From: Methyloceanibacter sp. wino2 | GTDB lineage: Bacteria; Pseudomonadota; Alphaproteobacteria; Rhizobiales; Methyloligellaceae | Assembly (NCBI RefSeq): GCF_003071365.1 | Contig: NZ_CP028960.1 | Span: 2,462,501 to 2,526,500, forward strand | Reading direction: 5' to 3' | Length of the DNA stretch: 64,000 bases | Shown here: positions 44,646-56,660 of the stretch, one piece after another | Position numbering within the stretch: position 1 is the first letter of the stretch | How the letters are laid out: each line of letters starts with the position of its first letter | Notes under the pieces: generated by a model | The model's input: the letters and a program-made list of their open reading frames with translations, nothing else | Database searches by the model: none | What the model was told of the DNA's origin: nothing | Made by a program: the position numbers and the translations under genes

Positions 44646-45287
44646 ATGAAAAAGATCGCTGGAATCATCCTCGCCGGAGGACAGTCGCGACGCATGGGCG
44701 GAGGCGACAAGAGCCTGCTTCCACTGCGTGACAGGCCTGTCCTGGCGGAGGTCGTCGATCGTCTTGTCCCGCAAGTCGGGCCCCTGGCCCTGAGCGCAAA
44801 CGGCGACCCCGGCCGCTTCGCCGCCTTCAGCTTGCCCGTCGTGCCGGACACGCTCGAGGGGTCTCACGGGCCGCTTGCCGGTATCGAGGCCGGGCTGTCC
44901 TGGGTGCGGGCCCAATGTCCCGGTGTTGCTTTCGCCGTGACCGTGCCCGGCGATACGCCCTTCATCCCTGCGGACCTGGTGGCGCGTCTCGTTGAAGGGA
45001 AGGGCGAGGCCTCGATGGCGGTCGCTGTTTCGGCGGTGGGCCTTCATCCCGTGGTCGGGCTCTGGCCCGTGGGGATGGCGGATGCTCTTGCGGACGCCTT
45101 GGCGCGCGGGGACCGCAGGGCAAGCCAATTCGTCCGGACGCAAGGCGCGGCGGAAGTTTTCTTCGCGCCTGTCTCGATCGCCGGGACCGAGGTCGATCCG
45201 TTCTTCAATATCAATACGCCCGAGGATATCGACTACGCCCGGGAGCTGACGGCGCGCGCTTCGCCATCGGCAAACGACTCGCGCTAG
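44646..45287 (+). CDS. mobA: Molybdenum cofactor guanylyltransferase MobA
   Basis: A 213-residue nucleotidyltransferase that attaches GMP to molybdopterin, forming the bis-MGD cofactor of enzymes such as formate dehydrogenase and DMSO reductase. The GTP-binding loop LAGGQSRRMGGGDKSLL is intact, with further motifs GPLAGIEAGL and VPGDTPFIP. It overlaps the convergent fdhD by four bases at the stop. Both genes serve Mo-dependent formate dehydrogenases. Confidence 0.94.
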   Translation: MKKIAGIILAGGQSRRMGGGDKSLLPLRDRPVLAEVVDRLVPQVGPLALSANGDPGRFAAFSLPVVPDTLEGSHGPLAGIEAGLSWVRAQCPGVAFAVTVPGDTPFIPADLVARLVEGKGEASMAVAVSAVGLHPVVGLWPVGMADALADALARGDRRASQFVRTQGAAEVFFAPVSIAGTEVDPFFNINTPEDIDYARELTARASPSANDSR

Positions 45288-46114
45288 GCCACGTCGCTTT
45301 TCGAGGCGCCGGCGATGCGGTGCGGGTGGGTGAAGACTTCGAACCCGTCTTTCCGGGCGACGGCGGCCAGTGTCATGCCGCACGCCTCGGCCATGCGCAC
45401 GGCAAGCGCCGTCGGCGCCGACACGGCGACAACCAGGGGTGCGCCGATCATGGCTGATTTCTGGATCATCTCGATTGAGACCCGGCTCGTCAGAACGACG
45501 ATGCCTTGGGACGCGTTGCCGCCCTTGCGCACGCAGGCGCCAGCAAGCTTATCGAGCGCATTGTGACGACCCACGTCCTCGCGCACGGCAACGAGGCCGC
45601 GTGCAGGCTCCCAAAAGCCCGCGGCGTGGACCGCGCGCGTCTCCCGATTGAGCTCTTGATGGGTGGCAAGCGATGCCACGGCCGTCATGATCTCGTCCGG
45701 TGTCAGCACCTGACCCTGGCCCACCTCGGGCGGGGGGCGCATGGCTTCGTTCAGGCTCTCGACGCCACAGAGGCCGCAGCCGGTGGGACCCGCGATCTTG
45801 CGGCGGCGCCCCAAGAACTCGGCCGCGTCCTTAGCCTTCAGCCACACACGCAGCTCGATGCCGGGCTCTTCCTCGATGATCTCGACAGTGTCGATGGCGT
45901 CCGGCGACGTCACGATCCCTTCGGTGAGGGCAAAGCCGACCGCAAAGTCCTCGAGATCCTGAGGGGTCGCCATCATCACCGCGTAGGACGCCGTATTGAA
46001 CGTAAAGGCGATCGCGGTCTCTTCCGGGATCGCGCGCGTGCCAGCGGTCATCGTTTGCGAGGCGGAATCCGAGCGCCAGATCGAGCAGGGGACGCGGACG
46101 ATGGGCTTGATCAT
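45284..46114 (-). CDS. fdhD: Formate dehydrogenase accessory sulfurtransferase FdhD
   Basis: A 276-residue FdhD. The sulfur-transfer cysteine loop is GCGLCGVESL. Conserved segments ETAIAFTFNTASYAVMMATP (in part), RETRAVHAAGF and VAVREDVGRHNALDKLAG are present. FdhD moves sulfur from IscS to the molybdenum of formate dehydrogenase, which is required for activity. No formate dehydrogenase structural genes lie in the window. Confidence 0.94.
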   Translation of the reverse strand: MIKPIVRVPCSIWRSDSASQTMTAGTRAIPEETAIAFTFNTASYAVMMATPQDLEDFAVGFALTEGIVTSPDAIDTVEIIEEEPGIELRVWLKAKDAAEFLGRRRKIAGPTGCGLCGVESLNEAMRPPPEVGQGQVLTPDEIMTAVASLATHQELNRETRAVHAAGFWEPARGLVAVREDVGRHNALDKLAGACVRKGGNASQGIVVLTSRVSIEMIQKSAMIGAPLVVAVSAPTALAVRMAEACGMTLAAVARKDGFEVFTHPHRIAGASKSDVA

Positions 46115-46952: not shown

Positions 46953-47732
46953 GTGAGAGTGCAGTTGCAGCGTAGAACCCTCCTCGCAAGTCTCCTTCTT
47001 GTGGTTCTAATTGCCGCGCCCGCGGATCGCGGCGCGGCGCAGGACCAGAAAACACCGTGCACGGAAGATGCGATGATCGTCTTCGACGCCTCGGGCTCGA
47101 TGGCGGGGAATCTCGGTCAGGGCATCATGACCGAGAAGCCGCGGATCTTCGAAGTGCGCCGCGCGCTCGCGCGCGTTCTGCCCAGTATCACCCAATATCG
47201 CAAAGTGGGTTTGATCACCTACGGTCCGGGTCCCTACCGGCAGTGCAATGTCCACCTCGACCTGAAGCCGATCGCCGATGCTGCCGAGCCCATCATGACT
47301 GTGGTCTCAAGACTGAACCCGGCCGGCAAGACGCCCTTGACTGAAGCGGTGGAGCAGGCGGCGAACGTGCTCGACCACCGGAGGAAGCCCGGTGTCGTGG
47401 TGCTGCTCACGGATGGCGAGGAGACCTGTAACCGCGATCCTTGCGCCTTGGGAAAGAAGCTCACGGCGACGAGCAGCAATCTGACCGTGCACGTCATCGG
47501 CTTTCAAATGAAGAACTTCACCTGGACCGGCGAGACGAGCGTTCTGGACGTCAAATGCCTCGCGAAGGAGACCGGAGGCCTCTACATCTCGGCGCAGAAC
47601 GAGGAAGACCTCGTCAAAGCCTTCCAGCAAACCCTCGGCTGCCCCATCATGTCGGGCTTGGAGACGACGTCGGCCTTGGACTCGCGCCGCGTTTTGGCCG
47701 ATAAGTCTTCCGGGTTCGCTGTCGGTCCATAG
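46953..47732 (+). CDS. Secreted von Willebrand factor A domain protein (copy 1 of 3)
   Basis: A 259-residue protein with a signal peptide (to AAQD) and a vWA domain. The metal ion-dependent adhesion site is complete: Asp45-x-Ser47-x-Ser49 (FDASGSM), Thr in GKTPLTEA and Asp in LTDGEETC. Six cysteines shared with the two following paralogs (PCTEDAM, QCNV, ETC, PC, KCLA, GCP) probably make three disulfides in the periplasm. vWA proteins mediate protein-protein contacts or act with MoxR ATPases, none of which is adjacent. GTG start. First of a tandem triplet. Confidence 0.85.
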   Translation: MRVQLQRRTLLASLLLVVLIAAPADRGAAQDQKTPCTEDAMIVFDASGSMAGNLGQGIMTEKPRIFEVRRALARVLPSITQYRKVGLITYGPGPYRQCNVHLDLKPIADAAEPIMTVVSRLNPAGKTPLTEAVEQAANVLDHRRKPGVVVLLTDGEETCNRDPCALGKKLTATSSNLTVHVIGFQMKNFTWTGETSVLDVKCLAKETGGLYISAQNEEDLVKAFQQTLGCPIMSGLETTSALDSRRVLADKSSGFAVGP

Positions 47733-47771
47733 ACAGCCACGGGCTCGCGAGTTTCTGGGCGAGGGAATTTC

Positions 47772-48521
47772 ATGACTGGGATGGGTTTTATCGGGCGATG
47801 CTGCCTTGTTCTCATGGCGGTCTGCCTTTTGCCGGTCGAGGGCCGTGCCGCCGACGAGGTGGTACCCTGCACCGAAGACGCCATGATCGTCTTTGACGCG
47901 TCAGGTTCGATGGCGGGCAGTCTTGCCGAGGGTATCGGCGCGAAGATCCGGCGCATCGACGAGGTGCGGAAAGCTTTGGCCCAGGCGCTTCCCCGCGTGA
48001 CCCATTTTCGGAAGATCGGGCTCATCACCTACGGTCCCGGTCCCTATCAGCAATGCAACGTCAATCTGGACCTGAAGCCGATCGCCGACGCCGCGGAGCC
48101 CATTCTGCACGCGGTCGATGGACTCAACCCGGCGGGCAAGACGCCCATGACGGAGGCGGTCGAGCAAGCGGCCGATGTGCTCGACTACAAAGCCAAGCCC
48201 GGAATCATCGTGGTTCTGACCGACGGTGAGGAGACTTGTGGCGGCGCACCCTGCGACCTTGGCAAGAAGCTCAAGAACGAGGGCGCGCGGCTGACGGTGC
48301 ACGTTATCGGCTTCCGCATGACGGCTTTCTGGACGGCGGCGCAGAGCGCGCTCGACGTGCAATGTTTGGCGAAGGAGACGGGCGGGCTCTATATCGCTAC
48401 GAACAGCCAGGAAGAACTCGTCAAGGCGTTCGAAAAGACGCTCGGCTGCCCCATGATGTCGGCCGTGGATCCGTCGGACCTCGAGCAGCACGCTTCCGCA
48501 AGCCTACGTTTGCACCCTTAG
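47772..48521 (+). CDS. Secreted von Willebrand factor A domain protein (copy 2 of 3)
   Basis: A 249-residue paralog of the flanking genes. Signal peptide MTGMGFIGRCCLVLMAVCLL with cleavage near GRAA, then PCTEDAM, MIDAS (FDASGSM), GKTPMTEAVEQAADVLDY, LTDGEETCGG and the C-terminal LGCPMMS. The gap to copy 1 is 39 bp, consistent with one transcript. Extensive identity with copy 1, including KPIADAAEPI and LVKAFEKTLGCP, shows tandem duplication. Confidence 0.85.
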   Translation: MTGMGFIGRCCLVLMAVCLLPVEGRAADEVVPCTEDAMIVFDASGSMAGSLAEGIGAKIRRIDEVRKALAQALPRVTHFRKIGLITYGPGPYQQCNVNLDLKPIADAAEPILHAVDGLNPAGKTPMTEAVEQAADVLDYKAKPGIIVVLTDGEETCGGAPCDLGKKLKNEGARLTVHVIGFRMTAFWTAAQSALDVQCLAKETGGLYIATNSQEELVKAFEKTLGCPMMSAVDPSDLEQHASASLRLHP

Positions 48522-48595
48522 GGCAAAATCGGCGATAAGTGACCGGCCCCTGGGTTCGCCATGGGTCTGCCATCGGAAACGTTGCGAGCTGTCGT

Positions 48596-49318
48596 ATGAA
48601 GCACCTTTTCGATTATCTCGCGTGCGCCGTGCTGCTGCTGTCAGGCGCCCTAACCGGGGCGATGCCTGCCCATGCTGCCGAGCAGCCAACGCCGTGCACC
48701 GAGGACGCGATGATCGTCTTCGATGCGTCGGGGTCCATGTCTGGAAATCTGGATCCGTTTTCGACGGTGGTGCAGTTGCGCATCGACGAAGTCCGCAAGG
48801 CGCTGCGGCGCGTCTTGCCTCGGGCGCAGCTGAACCGGAAGATCGGTTTGGTGACCTACGGTGCCGGCGCATACAATCAATGCAACGTGCAGCTGGAACT
48901 CCGTCCGACACCGCAGGCGGCGGCGCCGATCATGCGCATCGTCGACGCCCTGCGTCCGGCCGGCAAGACACCGCTGACGCAGGCGATCGAACAGGCCGCC
49001 GAGGTGTTGGACTACCGCAACCAGCCCGGTGTGATCGTCGTCCTGACCGATGGCCAGGAGACGTGCGACGGGCACCCTTGCGAGCTGGGCAAGCGCTTAG
49101 GCGCAGAGGCGCCCAATCTGACCGTCAACGTCATTGGCTTTCGCTTGCAGTCCGACTCGTGGCTGGGCGCGCAGAGTTATCTCGACGCCAAGTGTCTCGC
49201 CGAAGAGACAGGCGGAACCTATCTGAACGTCCATGGCGAGGACGACCTCGTCAAAGCGTTCGAGCAGACGCTGGGTTGCCCCATGATGTCCATGTGGGAA
49301 CCGGGTACGGTTCGTTAG
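48596..49318 (+). CDS. Secreted von Willebrand factor A domain protein (copy 3 of 3)
   Basis: A 240-residue paralog; the ATG at 48596 gives the signal peptide MKHLFDYLACAVLLLSG (in part, to AHAAE). MIDAS motif FDASGSM, then GKTPLTQAIEQAAEVLDY, LTDGQETC and LGCPMMSMW. It is more diverged from copies 1 and 2 than they are from each other (for example RPTPQAAAPI in place of KPIADAAEPI). It follows copy 2 by 74 bp. The frame opens at 48539 but the upstream part lacks a signal sequence. Confidence 0.83.
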   Translation: MKHLFDYLACAVLLLSGALTGAMPAHAAEQPTPCTEDAMIVFDASGSMSGNLDPFSTVVQLRIDEVRKALRRVLPRAQLNRKIGLVTYGAGAYNQCNVQLELRPTPQAAAPIMRIVDALRPAGKTPLTQAIEQAAEVLDYRNQPGVIVVLTDGQETCDGHPCELGKRLGAEAPNLTVNVIGFRLQSDSWLGAQSYLDAKCLAEETGGTYLNVHGEDDLVKAFEQTLGCPMMSMWEPGTVR

Positions 49319-53222: not shown

Positions 53223-53627
53223 ATGGCGAAAGTAATCTTCTATGAAAAGCCCGGATGCGGCGGAAATGCACGGCAGAAGGCCCTGCTGAAAGCGTCGGGC
53301 CACGAATTGGAGGTGCGCGACCTCCTGAGCGAGGCCTGGACGCCCGAAACGTTGCGGCCCTTCTTCGGCACGCGCCCGGTGAGCTCTTGGTTCAACCCGT
53401 CCGCGCCGCGAATCAAATCCGGGGAAATCAACCCGGACATGATTGGGGCGAGCAAGGCGCTCGCGATGATGATCGAGGATCCGCTGTTGATTCGCCGGCC
53501 ACTGATTCAAGTCGGCACGCGCCGCGAAACCGGTTTCGAGCAGGATCAGGTGGATATCTGGATCGGTCTATCGAAGACGCGCGAGCCGGTGGATGAAACC
53601 TGCCTGAAAGCGAAAGCAGGTGTCTAG
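53223..53627 (+). CDS. ArsC/Spx-fold nitrogenase-associated protein
   Basis: A 134-residue thioredoxin-fold protein: VIFYEKPGCGGNARQKALL, then SEAWTPETLRPFFGTRPVSSWFN and IRRPLIQVG. The single Cys in PGCGGN (one cysteine, not CxxC) and the overall pattern match the ArsC-like 'nitrogenase-associated protein' group, often found near nitrogenase or Mo genes. No nitrogenase genes are in the window. A shortened copy of it lies at 54818. It probably supports a Mo-related process; its chemistry is unknown. Confidence 0.78.
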   Translation: MAKVIFYEKPGCGGNARQKALLKASGHELEVRDLLSEAWTPETLRPFFGTRPVSSWFNPSAPRIKSGEINPDMIGASKALAMMIEDPLLIRRPLIQVGTRRETGFEQDQVDIWIGLSKTREPVDETCLKAKAGV

Positions 53628-53671
53628 GCCTCAGCAGCGGCCAGGCACGGGATTTGGCGTGCCGGGGCTGC

Positions 53672-53737
53672 TCACTCGACGTGGATACTGAACTTCGTGC
53701 TGTGCTTATCGCCGGGAGAGACGGGGCGCAGCGCGGT
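53672..53737 (-). pseudogene. Remnant of an aldose 1-epimerase C-terminus
   Basis: On the minus strand this reads ALRPVSPGDKHSTKFSIHVE and then a stop, closely matching the end of the intact epimerase (GLRLVSPGDTFSATFRIRVE, stop at 56687). The DNA is roughly 75-80 percent identical over about 60 bp by eye. Only about 20 codons remain, without a start. It shows that an epimerase gene, or a duplicate, once lay here. Confidence 0.75.
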
Positions 53738-53753
53738 TCGCGGCCCGGATTTG

Positions 53754-53773
53754 TTATATTCGCGACAATATAG
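53754..53773. promoter_or_regulatory. ModE-type box 1 (Mo-box)
   Basis: TTATATT-CGCGAC-AATATAG, an inverted repeat with 6-bp spacer. Preceded by G, it gives GTTATATT, identical to the left half of the E. coli modA operator, and it resembles the alphaproteobacterial Mo-box (TATATA-N6-TATATA core). A ModE-like regulator is encoded in the downstream operon (55581). Binding is inferred. Confidence 0.7.
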
Positions 53774-53797
53774 GAACTCCCGCAAGAGTCCGATTTG

Positions 53798-53817
53798 TTA
53801 TATCCTCGACAATATAG
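53798..53817. promoter_or_regulatory. ModE-type box 2 (Mo-box)
   Basis: TTATATC-CTCGAC-AATATAG, the same layout as box 1 with one mismatch in the palindrome. The boxes are 44 bp apart from start to start, close to four helical turns, inside a direct repeat of about 28 bp (CGATTTGTTATAT...CGACAATATAG). Two copies on one face of DNA favour cooperative binding. Confidence 0.68.
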
Positions 53818-53952
53818 CATTGGCGAGTGTGCAAGGACGTGGGCTGGAATGGGGACTGTTTCCCAACAGATTGAAATTGCGGTGATTTCTCCTTACCTCG
53901 GAGTTGGCCTGCGGCTTGCTACGACAAAAGCCGAGCAAACGACGCAACACCC

Positions 53953-54825
53953 ATGAACCGCAGTCTTCAATCACCCGTCCCGCCAGCGCGGCAGCCCGTT
54001 GCCATGGTGCTCGGCACCAACGAGATCGCCTCGGCCGTGGCCGTCCATCTCAAGCGCGGCGGCTACGCTGTCGTGCTGAGCCATGATCCGTTTCCGCCGG
54101 TGATCCGGCGCGCGATGGCCTTTCACGACGCGCTGTATGGCGACCCGGCGGTGCTGGCGCTCCTTCATGGTCAGCTTGCGGAGACGGGGCCCGAGCTTTC
54201 CGTGGTTTCGGCCAGACCAGATTGCGTTGCCGTATCGCCGCTTCTCCTCAACGACCTTCTCGCTTGGCGCATGCCGCAAGTCCTCATCGACGCGCGGCTT
54301 CAGAAGAATCGCGTGACGCCGGATTTGCGCGGCATCGCACGCCTGACGGTCGGCCTCGGACCCAATTTCGCGGTCGGCCGCAATTGCGACGTGGCCATCG
54401 AAACGCGCCCCAAGAAGGCTGGCGACATCGTCGTTCGGGGGCGTACCGACGAACCGGACGGGGTGCCGCCGGCTCTCGGAGGCGTGGGCAAGGAGCGGTT
54501 TGCCTATGCGACGACCGACGGGCTTTGGCATACGCCCATCGAGATCGGCATGCGTGTCTATAAGAACGTCATCGTTGGAACGCTGGGGAGCGTCGCCGTT
54601 CGCGCGCCGATCGACGGACACGTGCGGGGCATCGTCCGCGATTCGCTCACCGTCGAGGCGGGCGGCAAGCTGCTCGAGATCGATCCGCGCGGGCGGAATG
54701 CGGTTTGGACGGGCATGGACGGCCGCGGCCGCACCATCGCCCGCGCCACCATGAAGGCGATTCGGTTGCGCACTGCGCAGCGGGCGAGCCGTGGGAACGG
54801 ATCCAAGGAGGTCGTCGATGGCTAG
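53953..54825 (+). CDS. YqeB-family (EF2563-type) molybdenum hydroxylase accessory protein
   Basis: A 290-residue protein matching the 'selenium-dependent molybdenum hydroxylase system' YqeB group: VAMVLGTNEIASAVAVHLKRGG (in part) at the N-terminus, IDARLQKN, LTVGLGPNFAVGRNCDVAIET and GMRVYKNVIVGTLGSVAVRAPIDG (in part). YqeB-like proteins are thought to help mature or insert cofactors into molybdenum hydroxylases; no selenium link is seen here. First gene of an operon preceded by two Mo-boxes. Its end overlaps the next gene by 8 bp. Confidence 0.82.
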   Translation: MNRSLQSPVPPARQPVAMVLGTNEIASAVAVHLKRGGYAVVLSHDPFPPVIRRAMAFHDALYGDPAVLALLHGQLAETGPELSVVSARPDCVAVSPLLLNDLLAWRMPQVLIDARLQKNRVTPDLRGIARLTVGLGPNFAVGRNCDVAIETRPKKAGDIVVRGRTDEPDGVPPALGGVGKERFAYATTDGLWHTPIEIGMRVYKNVIVGTLGSVAVRAPIDGHVRGIVRDSLTVEAGGKLLEIDPRGRNAVWTGMDGRGRTIARATMKAIRLRTAQRASRGNGSKEVVDG

Positions 54826-55027
54826 GGTGGTCTTCTACGAAAAACCCGGTTGCGCGGGGAATGCGCGGAAAAAGCCGCTGCTCGTCTCGTCGGGCCACGC
54901 GCTCGGAGTGCGCGACCACCTGGCGAAGTCCTGGACGCCTGAGCGTTTGCGTCCGTTCTTCGGATACCGGCCCGTCAGCGATGCCTGTCGGAACGAGGCG
55001 CCCCTTCTTCAGCGGGGGAGGGCGTGA
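54818..55027 (+). CDS. Truncated paralog of the ArsC-like nitrogenase-associated protein
   Basis: A 69-residue protein. Residues 1-53 match the N-terminal part of the 53223 gene (VVFYEKPGCAGNARKKPLL, SWTPERLRPFFGYRPVS). The similarity stops abruptly at RPVSD and an unrelated short tail follows (ACRNEAPLLQRGRA). The C-terminal half of the fold, including the substrate-side motif IRRPLIQVG, is missing. It still has a strong ribosome site (AAGGAGG) and coupled starts on both sides, so it may be translated. It is either a broken copy or a minimal derivative. Confidence 0.7.
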   Translation: MARVVFYEKPGCAGNARKKPLLVSSGHALGVRDHLAKSWTPERLRPFFGYRPVSDACRNEAPLLQRGRA

Positions 55028-55581
55028 TGGCCAGAATTGCTGCGTTGCGCGGGTCTTCGTCGGCCCATCAGGCACTGCTCGCCACGTTCGCACAAAATGT
55101 CCGCGATGCCGGCTATCGCGTGGCGGGTCTGGTGCAGATCGCCCAGCCGTGTTCGAGCGGGTGCGAGGGTCTCGCCTTGCAGGACCTCTCGACCGGCGAC
55201 GTCCTCCCGATCTCGCAAGATCTCGGTCCGGGATCGACTGCGTGCAAGCTCGACTCGGCGACGCTGGCCGATGCCTGCGCCCGCGCGGAGCGGGCGATTG
55301 TCGGCGGTGCGGATCTCATGATCCTGAGCAAGTTCGGTAAACTCGAAGTCGTGCGCCATGGCCTCGTCGATGCGTTTCGTGCGGCGATGCTGGCGGGAAC
55401 GCCCGTCGCCACGTCGATTGCGGCCGAGGCGATTGCGGCCTGGCAGGACTTTGCCGGTCCGTTCGCCGACTTCGTGCCGGCAAATGCGGCAGACCTCGAT
55501 GAGTGGTGGGGAACGGTAAAAGATTTGCGTGCGCTAGATGAGCCAGCCGAAGCCCTGGCCGGCGATGGAGGCATGAGCTAA
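55027..55581 (+). CDS. DUF2478 protein (molybdenum-locus associated)
   Basis: A 184-residue protein of the DUF2478 family, which is usually located in molybdate transport or nitrogenase-related loci. N-terminal IAALRGSSSAHQALLATFAQN lies where related members have a nucleotide-binding loop, but a canonical P-loop (GKS/T) is not visible here. Later segments are GYRVAGLVQIAQPC, ADLMILSKFGKLE and AMLAGTPVATSIAAE. Either ATG 55027 or the overlapping GTG 55024 may be used. It is coupled to its neighbours on both sides. Function unknown. Confidence 0.78.
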   Translation: MARIAALRGSSSAHQALLATFAQNVRDAGYRVAGLVQIAQPCSSGCEGLALQDLSTGDVLPISQDLGPGSTACKLDSATLADACARAERAIVGGADLMILSKFGKLEVVRHGLVDAFRAAMLAGTPVATSIAAEAIAAWQDFAGPFADFVPANAADLDEWWGTVKDLRALDEPAEALAGDGGMS

Positions 55582-56015
55582 TGGGACGCGCAGCACCAGG
55601 CTCGGCGCACATGGAGATCACGATCCGGTTTGCCAATGGCGGGACCGTCACGGCGGAGGATATCGATCTTATCGAGGCCGTCCGCCGCGCGCGGTCGATC
55701 CTCGGGGCCAGCAAGGCGACGGGCGTGTCCTACCGGAAATGCTGGTTGACCGTCGATGCGCTCAACCGCTGCTTCGAGACGCCCGTGTTCGAGACGTTTC
55801 CAGGACGGCGCGGTGGCGGCGCTGCGCTCACGGATTTCGGCGCGCGGCTCGTGGCGCTCTACCGCTCCGTCGAGAGGCGCGCCGGAAACGCCGCGGCGCC
55901 GTCTCTTGCAGAGCTCACCGCGGCTCTCGATCCGGACTATCAGCCCCGCGCCACGTCCGGGGCTGCGGCAGGTCGTGTGGCTCAACCGCGTCCTTCCCGA
56001 TGGCAACAGTCTTGA
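55581..56015 (+). CDS. ModE-like winged-helix regulator (DNA-binding domain only)
   Basis: A 144-residue protein with the ModE N-terminal domain: DIDLIEAVRRARSILGASKA, TGVSYRKCWLTVDALNRCFE (in part), then TFPGRRGGGAALTDFGARLV. The helix-turn-helix and the R-x-G-G-G loop are typical of ModE/LysR-like molybdate regulators. The C-terminal Mop (molybdate-sensing) domains of full ModE are missing, and two separate Mop-containing proteins follow. It overlaps the preceding stop by one base (TAATG). Its tail overlaps the convergent gene by 101 bp. Confidence 0.83.
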   Translation: MGRAAPGSAHMEITIRFANGGTVTAEDIDLIEAVRRARSILGASKATGVSYRKCWLTVDALNRCFETPVFETFPGRRGGGAALTDFGARLVALYRSVERRAGNAAAPSLAELTAALDPDYQPRATSGAAAGRVAQPRPSRWQQS

Positions 56016-56424
56016 TCATGGCCCAGGCATTGAGATGCGGCTCGAGACCAAGCCGCTCGACGGATTCGCTGGTGACCAACGCCGTCAGCGATGTCGAACC
56101 GAGATTAAACGTGATCTGGACGAAGGGAAGTTCCAGCGCCTCTACGCCGACGATCGTGCCGGGCAAACGATTGGTGATGGAGACGTCCATAGGACGTGAC
56201 AAAGCGATGGAGACGTCGCGGGCGAAGATTGTCACCTGCACCCCCGAACCGGCCGGGGCGTCGACGAGGGGAACCCGCAGTTCTCCGTCACCGAAGAAAA
56301 GCGTCGACAGGCCGTACCGCGTGTCGTGGCGCAGAACGCGCGCGACAAGGGTCGTCGACAATGCCGGCGGTGTACCCGCCGCCGAAACGTTCGCCGTGCC
56401 TTGTGTCTCGGTGACGTCAGTCAT
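55915..56424 (-). CDS. Stand-alone ModC C-terminal (TOBE/Mop) domain protein
   Basis: A 169-residue protein corresponding to the C-terminal third of the molybdate ABC ATPase ModC: ARVLRHDTRYGLSTLFFG, VPLVDAPAGSGVQVTIFARDVSIAL (in part), then NRLPGTIVGVEAL and LTALVTSESVERLGL ending AMIKTVAI. There is no Walker A, signature or Walker B motif, and no room upstream for them: mop lies 32 bp away on the other strand. It is thus a truncated ModC or an oxyanion-binding protein evolved from one. A tail of about 25 residues extends across the 3' end of the ModE-like gene. Confidence 0.72.
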   Translation of the reverse strand: MTDVTETQGTANVSAAGTPPALSTTLVARVLRHDTRYGLSTLFFGDGELRVPLVDAPAGSGVQVTIFARDVSIALSRPMDVSITNRLPGTIVGVEALELPFVQITFNLGSTSLTALVTSESVERLGLEPHLNAWAMIKTVAIGKDAVEPHDLPQPRTWRGADSPDREPR

Positions 56425-56456
56425 GACTTGTTTAATACCACTAAGGAGCAATCAGC

Positions 56457-56660
56457 ATGAAGATATCCGCACGCAACGCTATCCCCGGCAAGGTCGAAGA
56501 GGTCAAGATGGGCGTCACGACCGCGCATGTGCGCATTGATGTCGGCGGCACCGTCGTCACCGCTGCTATCACCAACGAAGCGGTCGAGGATCTCGGGTTG
56601 GCCGTCGGCGACGAGGTGCGCGCCATTATCAAGGCGTCCGACGTGATGGTTGCGAAGTAG
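56457..56660 (+). CDS. mop: Molbindin (single Mop domain)
   Basis: A 67-residue molbindin: KISARNAIPGKVEEVKMG, DVGGTVVTAAITNEAVEDLGL, VGDEVRAIIKASDVMVAK (in parts). Mop proteins form hexamers that bind several molybdate or tungstate ions and serve as cytosolic storage. AAGGAGCAATCAGC precedes the ATG. It is divergent from the ModC-like gene. Confidence 0.92.
   Translation: MKISARNAIPGKVEEVKMGVTTAHVRIDVGGTVVTAAITNEAVEDLGLAVGDEVRAIIKASDVMVAK

Follow-up and report, generated by a model that had tools for sequence, protein, structure and literature searches.

Full-length ModE of the Escherichia coli type carries a helix-turn-helix (HTH) and two Mop domains in one chain, and the accessible sections of one source give the E. 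coli Mo-box consensus as ATCGCTATATA-N6-TATATAACGAT, to which the boxes described below are similar (PMC2700814). Departures from this layout are on record. In 2004, genes encoding a lone ModE DNA-binding domain were reported, and Desulfovibrio encodes separate MOP-containing chimeric proteins in its modABC cluster, with a mode of molybdenum sensing that the available part of the same paper calls not clear (PMC545781). Gmet_0511 of Geobacter metallireducens is described, in the sections available, as a ModE reduced to MopI domains, with its DNA-binding half lost and its boxes decaying (PMC2700814). In ModC of Methanosarcina, according to part of a review, molybdate is bound at the dimer interface of the regulatory domain and transport is inhibited (PMC10710835). 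Here we analyze a locus of Methyloceanibacter sp. wino2 in which a gene for an HTH-only ModE (ModE1) converges on a gene for a stand-alone C-terminal regulatory domain of ModC, which we call the tail. The whole 64,000-nucleotide stretch analyzed is referred to as the window.

An HTH-only ModE and a convergent ModC tail

Between 53.7 and 56.7 kb, the window holds two Mo-boxes, then four same-strand genes with overlaps of a few bases, then a gene that converges on them, and last a molbindin gene:

53753..53774, no strand: Mo-box 1, GTTATAT-N8-ATATAGG, GTTATATTCGCGACAATATAGG
53797..53818, no strand: Mo-box 2, GTTATAT-N8-ATATAGC, GTTATATCCTCGACAATATAGC, starting 44 bp after box 1
53953..54825, plus strand: YqeB-like protein, 290 residues (TIGR03309, 143.7 bits), first gene 3' of the boxes
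54818..55027, plus strand: C-terminally truncated nitrogenase-associated (ArsC-superfamily) protein, 69 residues (TIGR01616, profile positions 1-66 of 126)
55027..55581, plus strand: DUF2478 protein, 184 residues (PF10649, 150 bits)
55581..56015, plus strand: HTH-only ModE (ModE1), 144 residues (TIGR00637, 59.9 bits)
55915..56424, minus strand: stand-alone ModC C-terminal regulatory domain (tail), 169 residues from its ATG, ModC positions 218-352, convergent with modE
55915..56015, no strand: 101-nt 3' overlap of the modE and tail genes, in the same phase in relatives
56457..56660, plus strand: molbindin (Mop), 67 residues (TIGR00638, 74.8 bits, cut-off 55)

The ATG of modE1 overlaps the stop codon of the DUF2478 gene, the start codons of the molbindin and tail genes are 32 bp apart, and the third-position GC content of the tail gene (0.75) is similar to that of neighboring genes. 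No Rfam RNA, the molybdenum cofactor (Moco) riboswitch included, reached its gathering score at 50-60 kb of the window; a sigma-70 scan of 53.6-56.75 kb gave no promoter-like site on either strand, and terminators were at chance level.

The original prediction for this locus, made from the sequence alone, had placed paired ModE-type boxes ahead of an operon of YqeB-like, truncated ArsC-like, DUF2478, and ModE-like genes, the last without its Mop domain. Profile matches confirmed the gene order, both boxes are present beyond what shuffled sequence yields, and the 144-residue ModE1 chain is an HTH with no TOBE match, so it is not a full-length ModE with two Mop domains in one chain. The N-terminal HTH scored under the TIGR00637 cut-off of 98.5 bits and matched ModE entries of the PDB by sequence (1b9m, 1o7l). 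HTH-alone content and size (a class of ~130-150 residues) fit the short ModE, ModE(S), and the best PDB sequence match was the 135-residue repressor 2ijl, which we take to be ModE(S) of Agrobacterium. TOBE domains occur at four places in the genome (the molbindin, the tail, the ModC of a modABC set, and a second molbindin), and at none of the four was one joined to an HTH. A full-length ModE elsewhere, named by the original prediction as a finding that would speak against it, was not found in searches of the organism's own genome, which gave two HTH-only modE genes instead.

Three box patterns were searched. GTTATAT-N8-ATATAG with two or fewer mismatches gave three strand-counted matches against 0.06 expected from shuffles; because the third is box 2 on the opposite strand, these are two distinct sites. 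For a stricter pattern, CGNTATAT-N8-ATATANCG, boxes 1 and 2 need three and two mismatches, respectively, with 0.22 matches expected and two of 100 shuffles reaching two. SNTATAT-N8-ATATANS is matched perfectly at three sites of the 3.21-Mb genome, namely both window boxes and one beside the second modE gene, modE2, and the reversed-pattern control had none in the genome; this genome-wide search took perfect matches alone, so weaker boxes may lie elsewhere. The third perfect box begins 21 nt past the start of the longest reading frame of modE2.

Conservation, fold, and origin of the tail

The tail matches the ModC profile from position 218 onward (TIGR02142, 80.9 bits) and a TOBE domain (40 bits); it has the C-terminal regulatory/TOBE domain of ModC and lacks the ATP-binding cassette (ABC) ATPase domain. 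The Mop domains missing from ModE1 had been predicted to occur as two separate downstream proteins. Both proteins exist, but the ModC piece is a ModC regulatory domain rather than the lost Mop pair of ModE.

First, the pairing of modE and tail recurs in other genomes. Scanning 84,980 species of named genomes with two peptide patterns, drawn from an alignment of seven stand-alone tails and liable to miss distant ones, yielded 42 tail loci. In 39 of these the tail stands free of any ATPase part, and L094, L095, and L098 encode a full ModC; L075, flagged as a full ModC on account of a long, weak alignment that runs through a stop, was counted as lone on its 166-residue open frame, which raised the number from 38 to 39. 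An HTH-only ModE converges on the tail in 39/39 lone-tail loci and in 41 of the 42 overall (not L095), and the 3' overlap in the lone-tail loci measures 38-116 nt, every value being 2 modulo 3. Hosts include Rhodoplanes, Bradyrhizobium BTAi1, Methylocella, Methylocapsa, Beijerinckia, Rhodomicrobium, Methylosinus, Prosthecomicrobium, and one Azospirillum; the nearest named relative by tail is Methyloceanibacter methanicus (89%). In an order-wide survey of 397 genomes (9-10 candidates per genome scored with the tail and ModE alignment profiles A3 and A5, so misses are possible), the tail profile at E 1e-30 matched 16, of which 14 scored >200 bits and are lone tails; G104 and G284 scored ~145 bits in long frames, as expected of full ModC. 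The best ModE match was close to the tail, convergent with it, and on the same contig in 16/16 genomes, including all 14 with lone tails. The search of related genomes recommended by the original prediction thus found the ModE/tail pair in every lone-tail locus and genome, and the pair is a widespread module that extends beyond the compact operon of one genome.

Second, the tail is under purifying selection. Duplicate records (e.g., L043/L058, L042/L059, L044/L081, and L046/L093) were removed before tail alignment A3 (42 rows), and ModE alignment A5 has 41 rows, the split modE of L058 being excluded. For the part of the tail outside the modE overlap, the ratio of non-synonymous to synonymous substitution rates (dN/dS) had a median of 0.34 and a maximum of 0.59, and was <0.5 in 222 of 234 usable pairs; the remainder of the 861 pairs lay beyond the dS range used. 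Window and M. methanicus tails differ by dN 0.072 and dS 0.504. The core motif RPMDVSITN is near-invariant across the 42 tails. A tail without an ATPase domain might be a decaying modC leftover, but with 42 open frames, purifying selection, and the near-invariant motif this explanation is already contradicted and scarcely credible, and the tail as debris was rejected. A stop codon within the tail profile match in four of the 14 lone-tail genomes (G056, G175, G394, and G407) proved to be the gene's own terminal stop when the same genes were checked in L046, L077, L084, and L064, with records matched by identical nifD places (L046 by other evidence). As a separate observation, the tail-linked modE of M. 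methanicus lies in two frames in the draft (L058 7416-7846 / L043 7545-7975), either because the regulator is broken or through a sequencing error; the adjoining tail is open.

Third, AlphaFold modeled the tail on the 42-row alignment as an almost all-beta chain (predicted local distance difference test [pLDDT] 87.7; predicted template-modeling score 0.77). The best PDB matches of this model in Foldseek were the Methanosarcina ModC regulatory domain (3d31, E 1.5e-8) and ModG (1h9j, 3.8e-7), followed by E. coli ModE (1b9n, 1e-6) and the molybdate-bound ModE Dimop domain (1h9s, 1.9e-6); tails of other ABC ATPases, such as MalK, ranked lower. The tail is thus predicted to share the fold of the ModC regulatory domain, ModG, and the molybdate domain of E. 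coli ModE. By sequence, it matched the second Mop of ModG at E 1.4e-4, or 9.7e-9 with a profile. In Tub, a tungstate-binding TOBE protein, the oxyanion ligands given in the accessible part of the source are Ser4, Ser40, and Lys60 (PMC11980592). Placed by hand through sequence alignment, these correspond to Ser82, Thr118, and Lys138 of the tail; the first and last are kept in all 42 tails and Thr118 in 41.

The tail is also associated with nifD, which exceeded its cut-off in all but one (G277) of the 14 lone-tail genomes of the order versus 53/383 others (Fisher p 3e-10, with kinship ignored, all co-occurrence counts here being uncorrected for phylogeny). An earlier set of 121 relatives gave 6/7 tail genomes versus 10/114, and nifD was above cut-off in 29 of the 42 named loci, comprising 23/24 lone-tail records not titled as metagenome-assembled genomes (MAGs), 5/15 lone-tail MAGs, and L094. 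This association, the fold match to ModG, and the molbindin adjoining the tail in the window would suit a ModG- or Mop-like store or donor of molybdate for synthesis of the iron-molybdenum cofactor, linked to modE by history and overlap only. A store would have no need, however, to remain beside modE in every lone-tail genome found, the tail is missing from 53 of 66 nifD-bearing genomes, and the organism's own genome already has two molbindins; we therefore regard a storage role as improbable.

Finally, the tails appear to share one origin. All 42 formed one clade (100/100) relative to 18 full ModCs, and its sister group consists of four full ModCs (L019, L094, L095, and L098; 99/96), three of which (not L095) converge on ModE. 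Of the short-branched rows, the ModEs of those three lie closest to the tail-linked ModE clade (100/99), with joins of moderate support (83/57 and 95/74); one long-branched row, L039, falls just outside. The full modC of L098 already shares a 38-nt overlap with modE. A convergent modC occurs at six of 23 other ModE loci of the order (L019, L021, L022, L034, L038, and L041; ~1.5-kb flanks), so convergence of modE and modC is not rare. In the simplest account of these trees and neighborhoods, the tail would have been born from a single loss of the ATPase part by a modC convergent with a short modE.

Descent from a ModC regulatory domain also raises another possibility, that the tail forms pairs with this domain in ModC and adjusts how far the molybdate pump is trans-inhibited, with co-regulation alone linking it to modE. 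The behavior described for the Methanosarcina domains in the part of the review cited above, molybdate binding at the dimer interface with inhibition of transport (PMC10710835), would fit such a role. The constant neighbor of the tail is modE rather than modABC, however, and the ModCs of tail-bearing genomes that the tree included (the organism's own genome, L047, L064, L067, L068, L071, L072, L077, and L091) fall outside the sister group of the tail, so the pairing interfaces have probably diverged. We consider this role very unlikely.

Operon partners and other molybdenum genes

Among the 39 lone-tail loci, yqeB is present in 22, a DUF2478 gene in 13, and a separate Mop gene in 15. The YqeB-like protein of the window scores below the TIGR03309 cut-off of 220 bits, which makes it a relative of YqeB only. 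A THEP1-like P-loop nucleoside triphosphatase fold is predicted for the DUF2478 protein (AlphaFold pLDDT 83.6; Foldseek match 1ye8, E 2.2e-5); judged by eye from alignment A4 it has no recognizable Walker A motif, and no paper in our literature search linked DUF2478 with molybdenum. The ArsC-superfamily gene at the same operon position is longer in L058 and L061 (118 and 132 of 134 residues matched), and the truncated copy in the window looks like a deletion relic of a gene with an intact paralogue upstream. That paralogue is probably a neighbor outside the operon:

53223..53627, plus strand: intact nitrogenase-associated (ArsC-superfamily) paralogue (TIGR01616, 180.5 bits), upstream of the boxes

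Mo-boxes accompany yqeB in many relatives. A box with two or fewer mismatches lies near the yqeB start (300 bp upstream to 60 bp downstream) in 16 of 23 yqeB loci, the window included (YqeB alignment A6, 23 rows), and box density there is 73 times that elsewhere in the loci. In five Bradyrhizobium loci (L064, L067, L068, L071, and L072), modABC is immediately upstream; boxes occupy the modC-yqeB interval in 5/5 and lie upstream of modA in four (not L064). The locus of Azospirillum sp. TSO22-1 (L062) has yqeB, DUF2478, modE, and tail, with no box found near yqeB; its tail groups inside mostly Hyphomicrobiales tails and was therefore likely transferred as a unit with the other three genes.

This operon content underlies the strongest rival of a tail-based sensor, in which the HTH-only ModE would sense Moco status, as is reported for ModE(S) of Agrobacterium, through Moco-handling partners such as the YqeB-like and THEP1-like DUF2478 proteins, with the tail as an accessory or buffer. 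The Mo-boxed operon does hold yqeB, DUF2478, and modE both here and in several relatives, and the best PDB match of ModE1 is the short repressor 2ijl. The partners are far less constant than the regulator, however: the yqeB and DUF2478 counts given above compare with an HTH-only ModE in all 39 lone-tail loci, some contigs being short, and in the genomes searched a tail accompanies ModE only in the clade of ModE1. On balance, we judge sensing of Moco status unlikely, although less so than the storage and pump-tuning roles.

The original prediction had seen no molybdate transporter or molybdenum enzyme in the window and had suggested a search for ModABC elsewhere. Inspection of sequence starts by eye likewise showed none among the predicted genes, but two Moco genes that it did not mention are present:

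44646-45287: mobA (192.7 bits, cut-off 151.85)
45284-46114: fdhD (198.9 bits, cut-off 140.9), convergent with mobA, 4-nt overlap

A modABC set was found outside the window in the same genome (modA and modC by profile, modB by eye; L008:6314-8916), adjoining nifW and a fixB-like gene and ~17 kb from nifD, which makes the organism a diazotroph by gene content. Mo-box control of this set was considered and rejected: in the 14-kb locus, the matches at three or fewer mismatches all have three and lie >2 kb from modA. With modABC beside the nif/fix cluster and no close Mo-box near modA, molybdate uptake may be under the control of nif and not of ModE. Elsewhere in the genome are the second molbindin and Moco enzyme domains (one match to PF02738 and seven to PF00384).

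Two further observations concern other loci. HTH-only modE2, with its perfect palindromic Mo-box (L007:7665-9618; genome C1, ~2.0897-2.0916 Mb), is followed by the gene for a phosphate-selective O/P family porin (PF07396, 207 bits), a candidate molybdenum-controlled oxyanion porin; the modE2-porin pair appears again in L025/L055, L030, and L032, with modA nearby in L055 and L036. At 46953-49318, the window encodes three similar tandem proteins, each with the motif PCTEDAMIVFDASGSM, which by eye appear to be secreted and to resemble the starts of von Willebrand A domains.

A proposed split ModE and its known relatives

We propose that the locus encodes a split ModE, its sensor supplied in trans by the ModC-derived tail, an account that we regard as evenly poised between right and wrong. 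The HTH-only ModE would bind Mo-boxes, including the pair ahead of its own operon, and the tail would bind molybdate at its dimer interface and associate with ModE, restoring in trans the HTH-plus-sensor layout of the full-length protein. The complex would make DNA binding molybdate-dependent, and the yqeB-modE operon would be repressed at high molybdenum; the tail itself would have arisen once, by loss of the ATPase part of a modC convergent with a short modE. Contact between ModE and the tail, molybdate binding by a tail dimer, and the direction of regulation are what we infer; the conserved pair, single origin on the sampled rows, purifying selection, predicted fold, ligand positions, and box enrichment were computed. 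The earlier idea that the regulator senses molybdate through the separate Mop proteins gains strong circumstantial support for the tail, which is conserved with ModE, tightly linked to it, under purifying selection, and predicted to fold like the molybdate domain of ModE. The molbindin, near the tail in 15 of 39 lone-tail loci, is a weaker candidate.

Several points weigh against a split ModE. The tight gene overlap would hold modE and tail together even without joint function. HTH-only ModEs exist without a tail, e.g., modE2 with its own perfect box, so the tail is not required by every short ModE. The lone tail is absent from those same 53 of 66 nifD genomes of the order, and G004, a diazotroph of the same genus, has nifD but neither a tail nor a tail-type ModE. 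Seven of the 23 yqeB loci have no box near yqeB, although the contig of L066 ends 63 bp upstream. The tail lies on the strand opposite modE, and no sigma-70 promoter-like site that could account for its expression was found at 53.6-56.75 kb. It has one recognizable TOBE domain, not two, and the columns of its ligand positions are also occupied by Ser, Thr, and Lys in 11, 17, and 18, respectively, of the 18 full ModCs, so the tail is not singled out and the chemistry is retained rather than new. Finally, in Agrobacterium, which has the best-studied short ModE, molybdate uptake and ModE(S) activity are reportedly tied to Moco status, according to a 2016 paper, although we know of no sensor protein for this link.

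The split-ModE proposal can be put more broadly, and then more tentatively: an inhibitory domain may have been cut once from an ATPase, kept as the detachable sensor of a short ModE in a two-gene, one-function molybdate switch, and spread mainly via nitrogen-fixing alphaproteobacteria, a history that we find plausible but would not yet favor. The ModE/tail module is a precise and testable candidate partnership in many diazotrophs, and most of the listed hosts are cultured isolates. If the proposal is true, it would give one answer to how a ModE without Mop domains senses metal, explain molybdenum control in some methanotrophs, purple bacteria, and photosynthetic bradyrhizobia, and provide a route by which a transporter feedback domain becomes a gene regulator or transcription co-factor.

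Compared with full-length ModE, the locus has a homologous HTH, a similar Mo-box, and a tail with the predicted fold of the molybdate domain, but the two halves are encoded by different genes, one on each strand, and the sensor half derives from ModC rather than ModE. Gmet_0511 resembles the tail as a free-standing, sensor-like half; it is ModE-derived, however, whereas the window keeps both halves. The tail shares sequence origin and fold with the ModC regulatory (TOBE) domain and the ModBC trans-inhibition domain but is free-standing, without an ATPase, and it shares the predicted fold of the ModG and Mop molbindins but has one recognizable Mop domain, is ModC-derived, and is tied to modE. 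MalK and MalT couple a transporter ATPase to a transcription regulator; there, as proposed here, a transporter subunit controls a transcription factor, but the tail is a domain cut off as its own protein and its coupling to ModE would be of that kind by inference. A free ModC tail paired with ModE was not described in the literature searched, which lay mostly outside subscription journals. ModE1 has the same domain content and size as the short ModE, ModE(S), and HTH-only ModE was already known; to this known form the locus adds a dedicated, conserved, ModC-derived candidate sensor encoded convergently, and this conserved tail partner is the new part.

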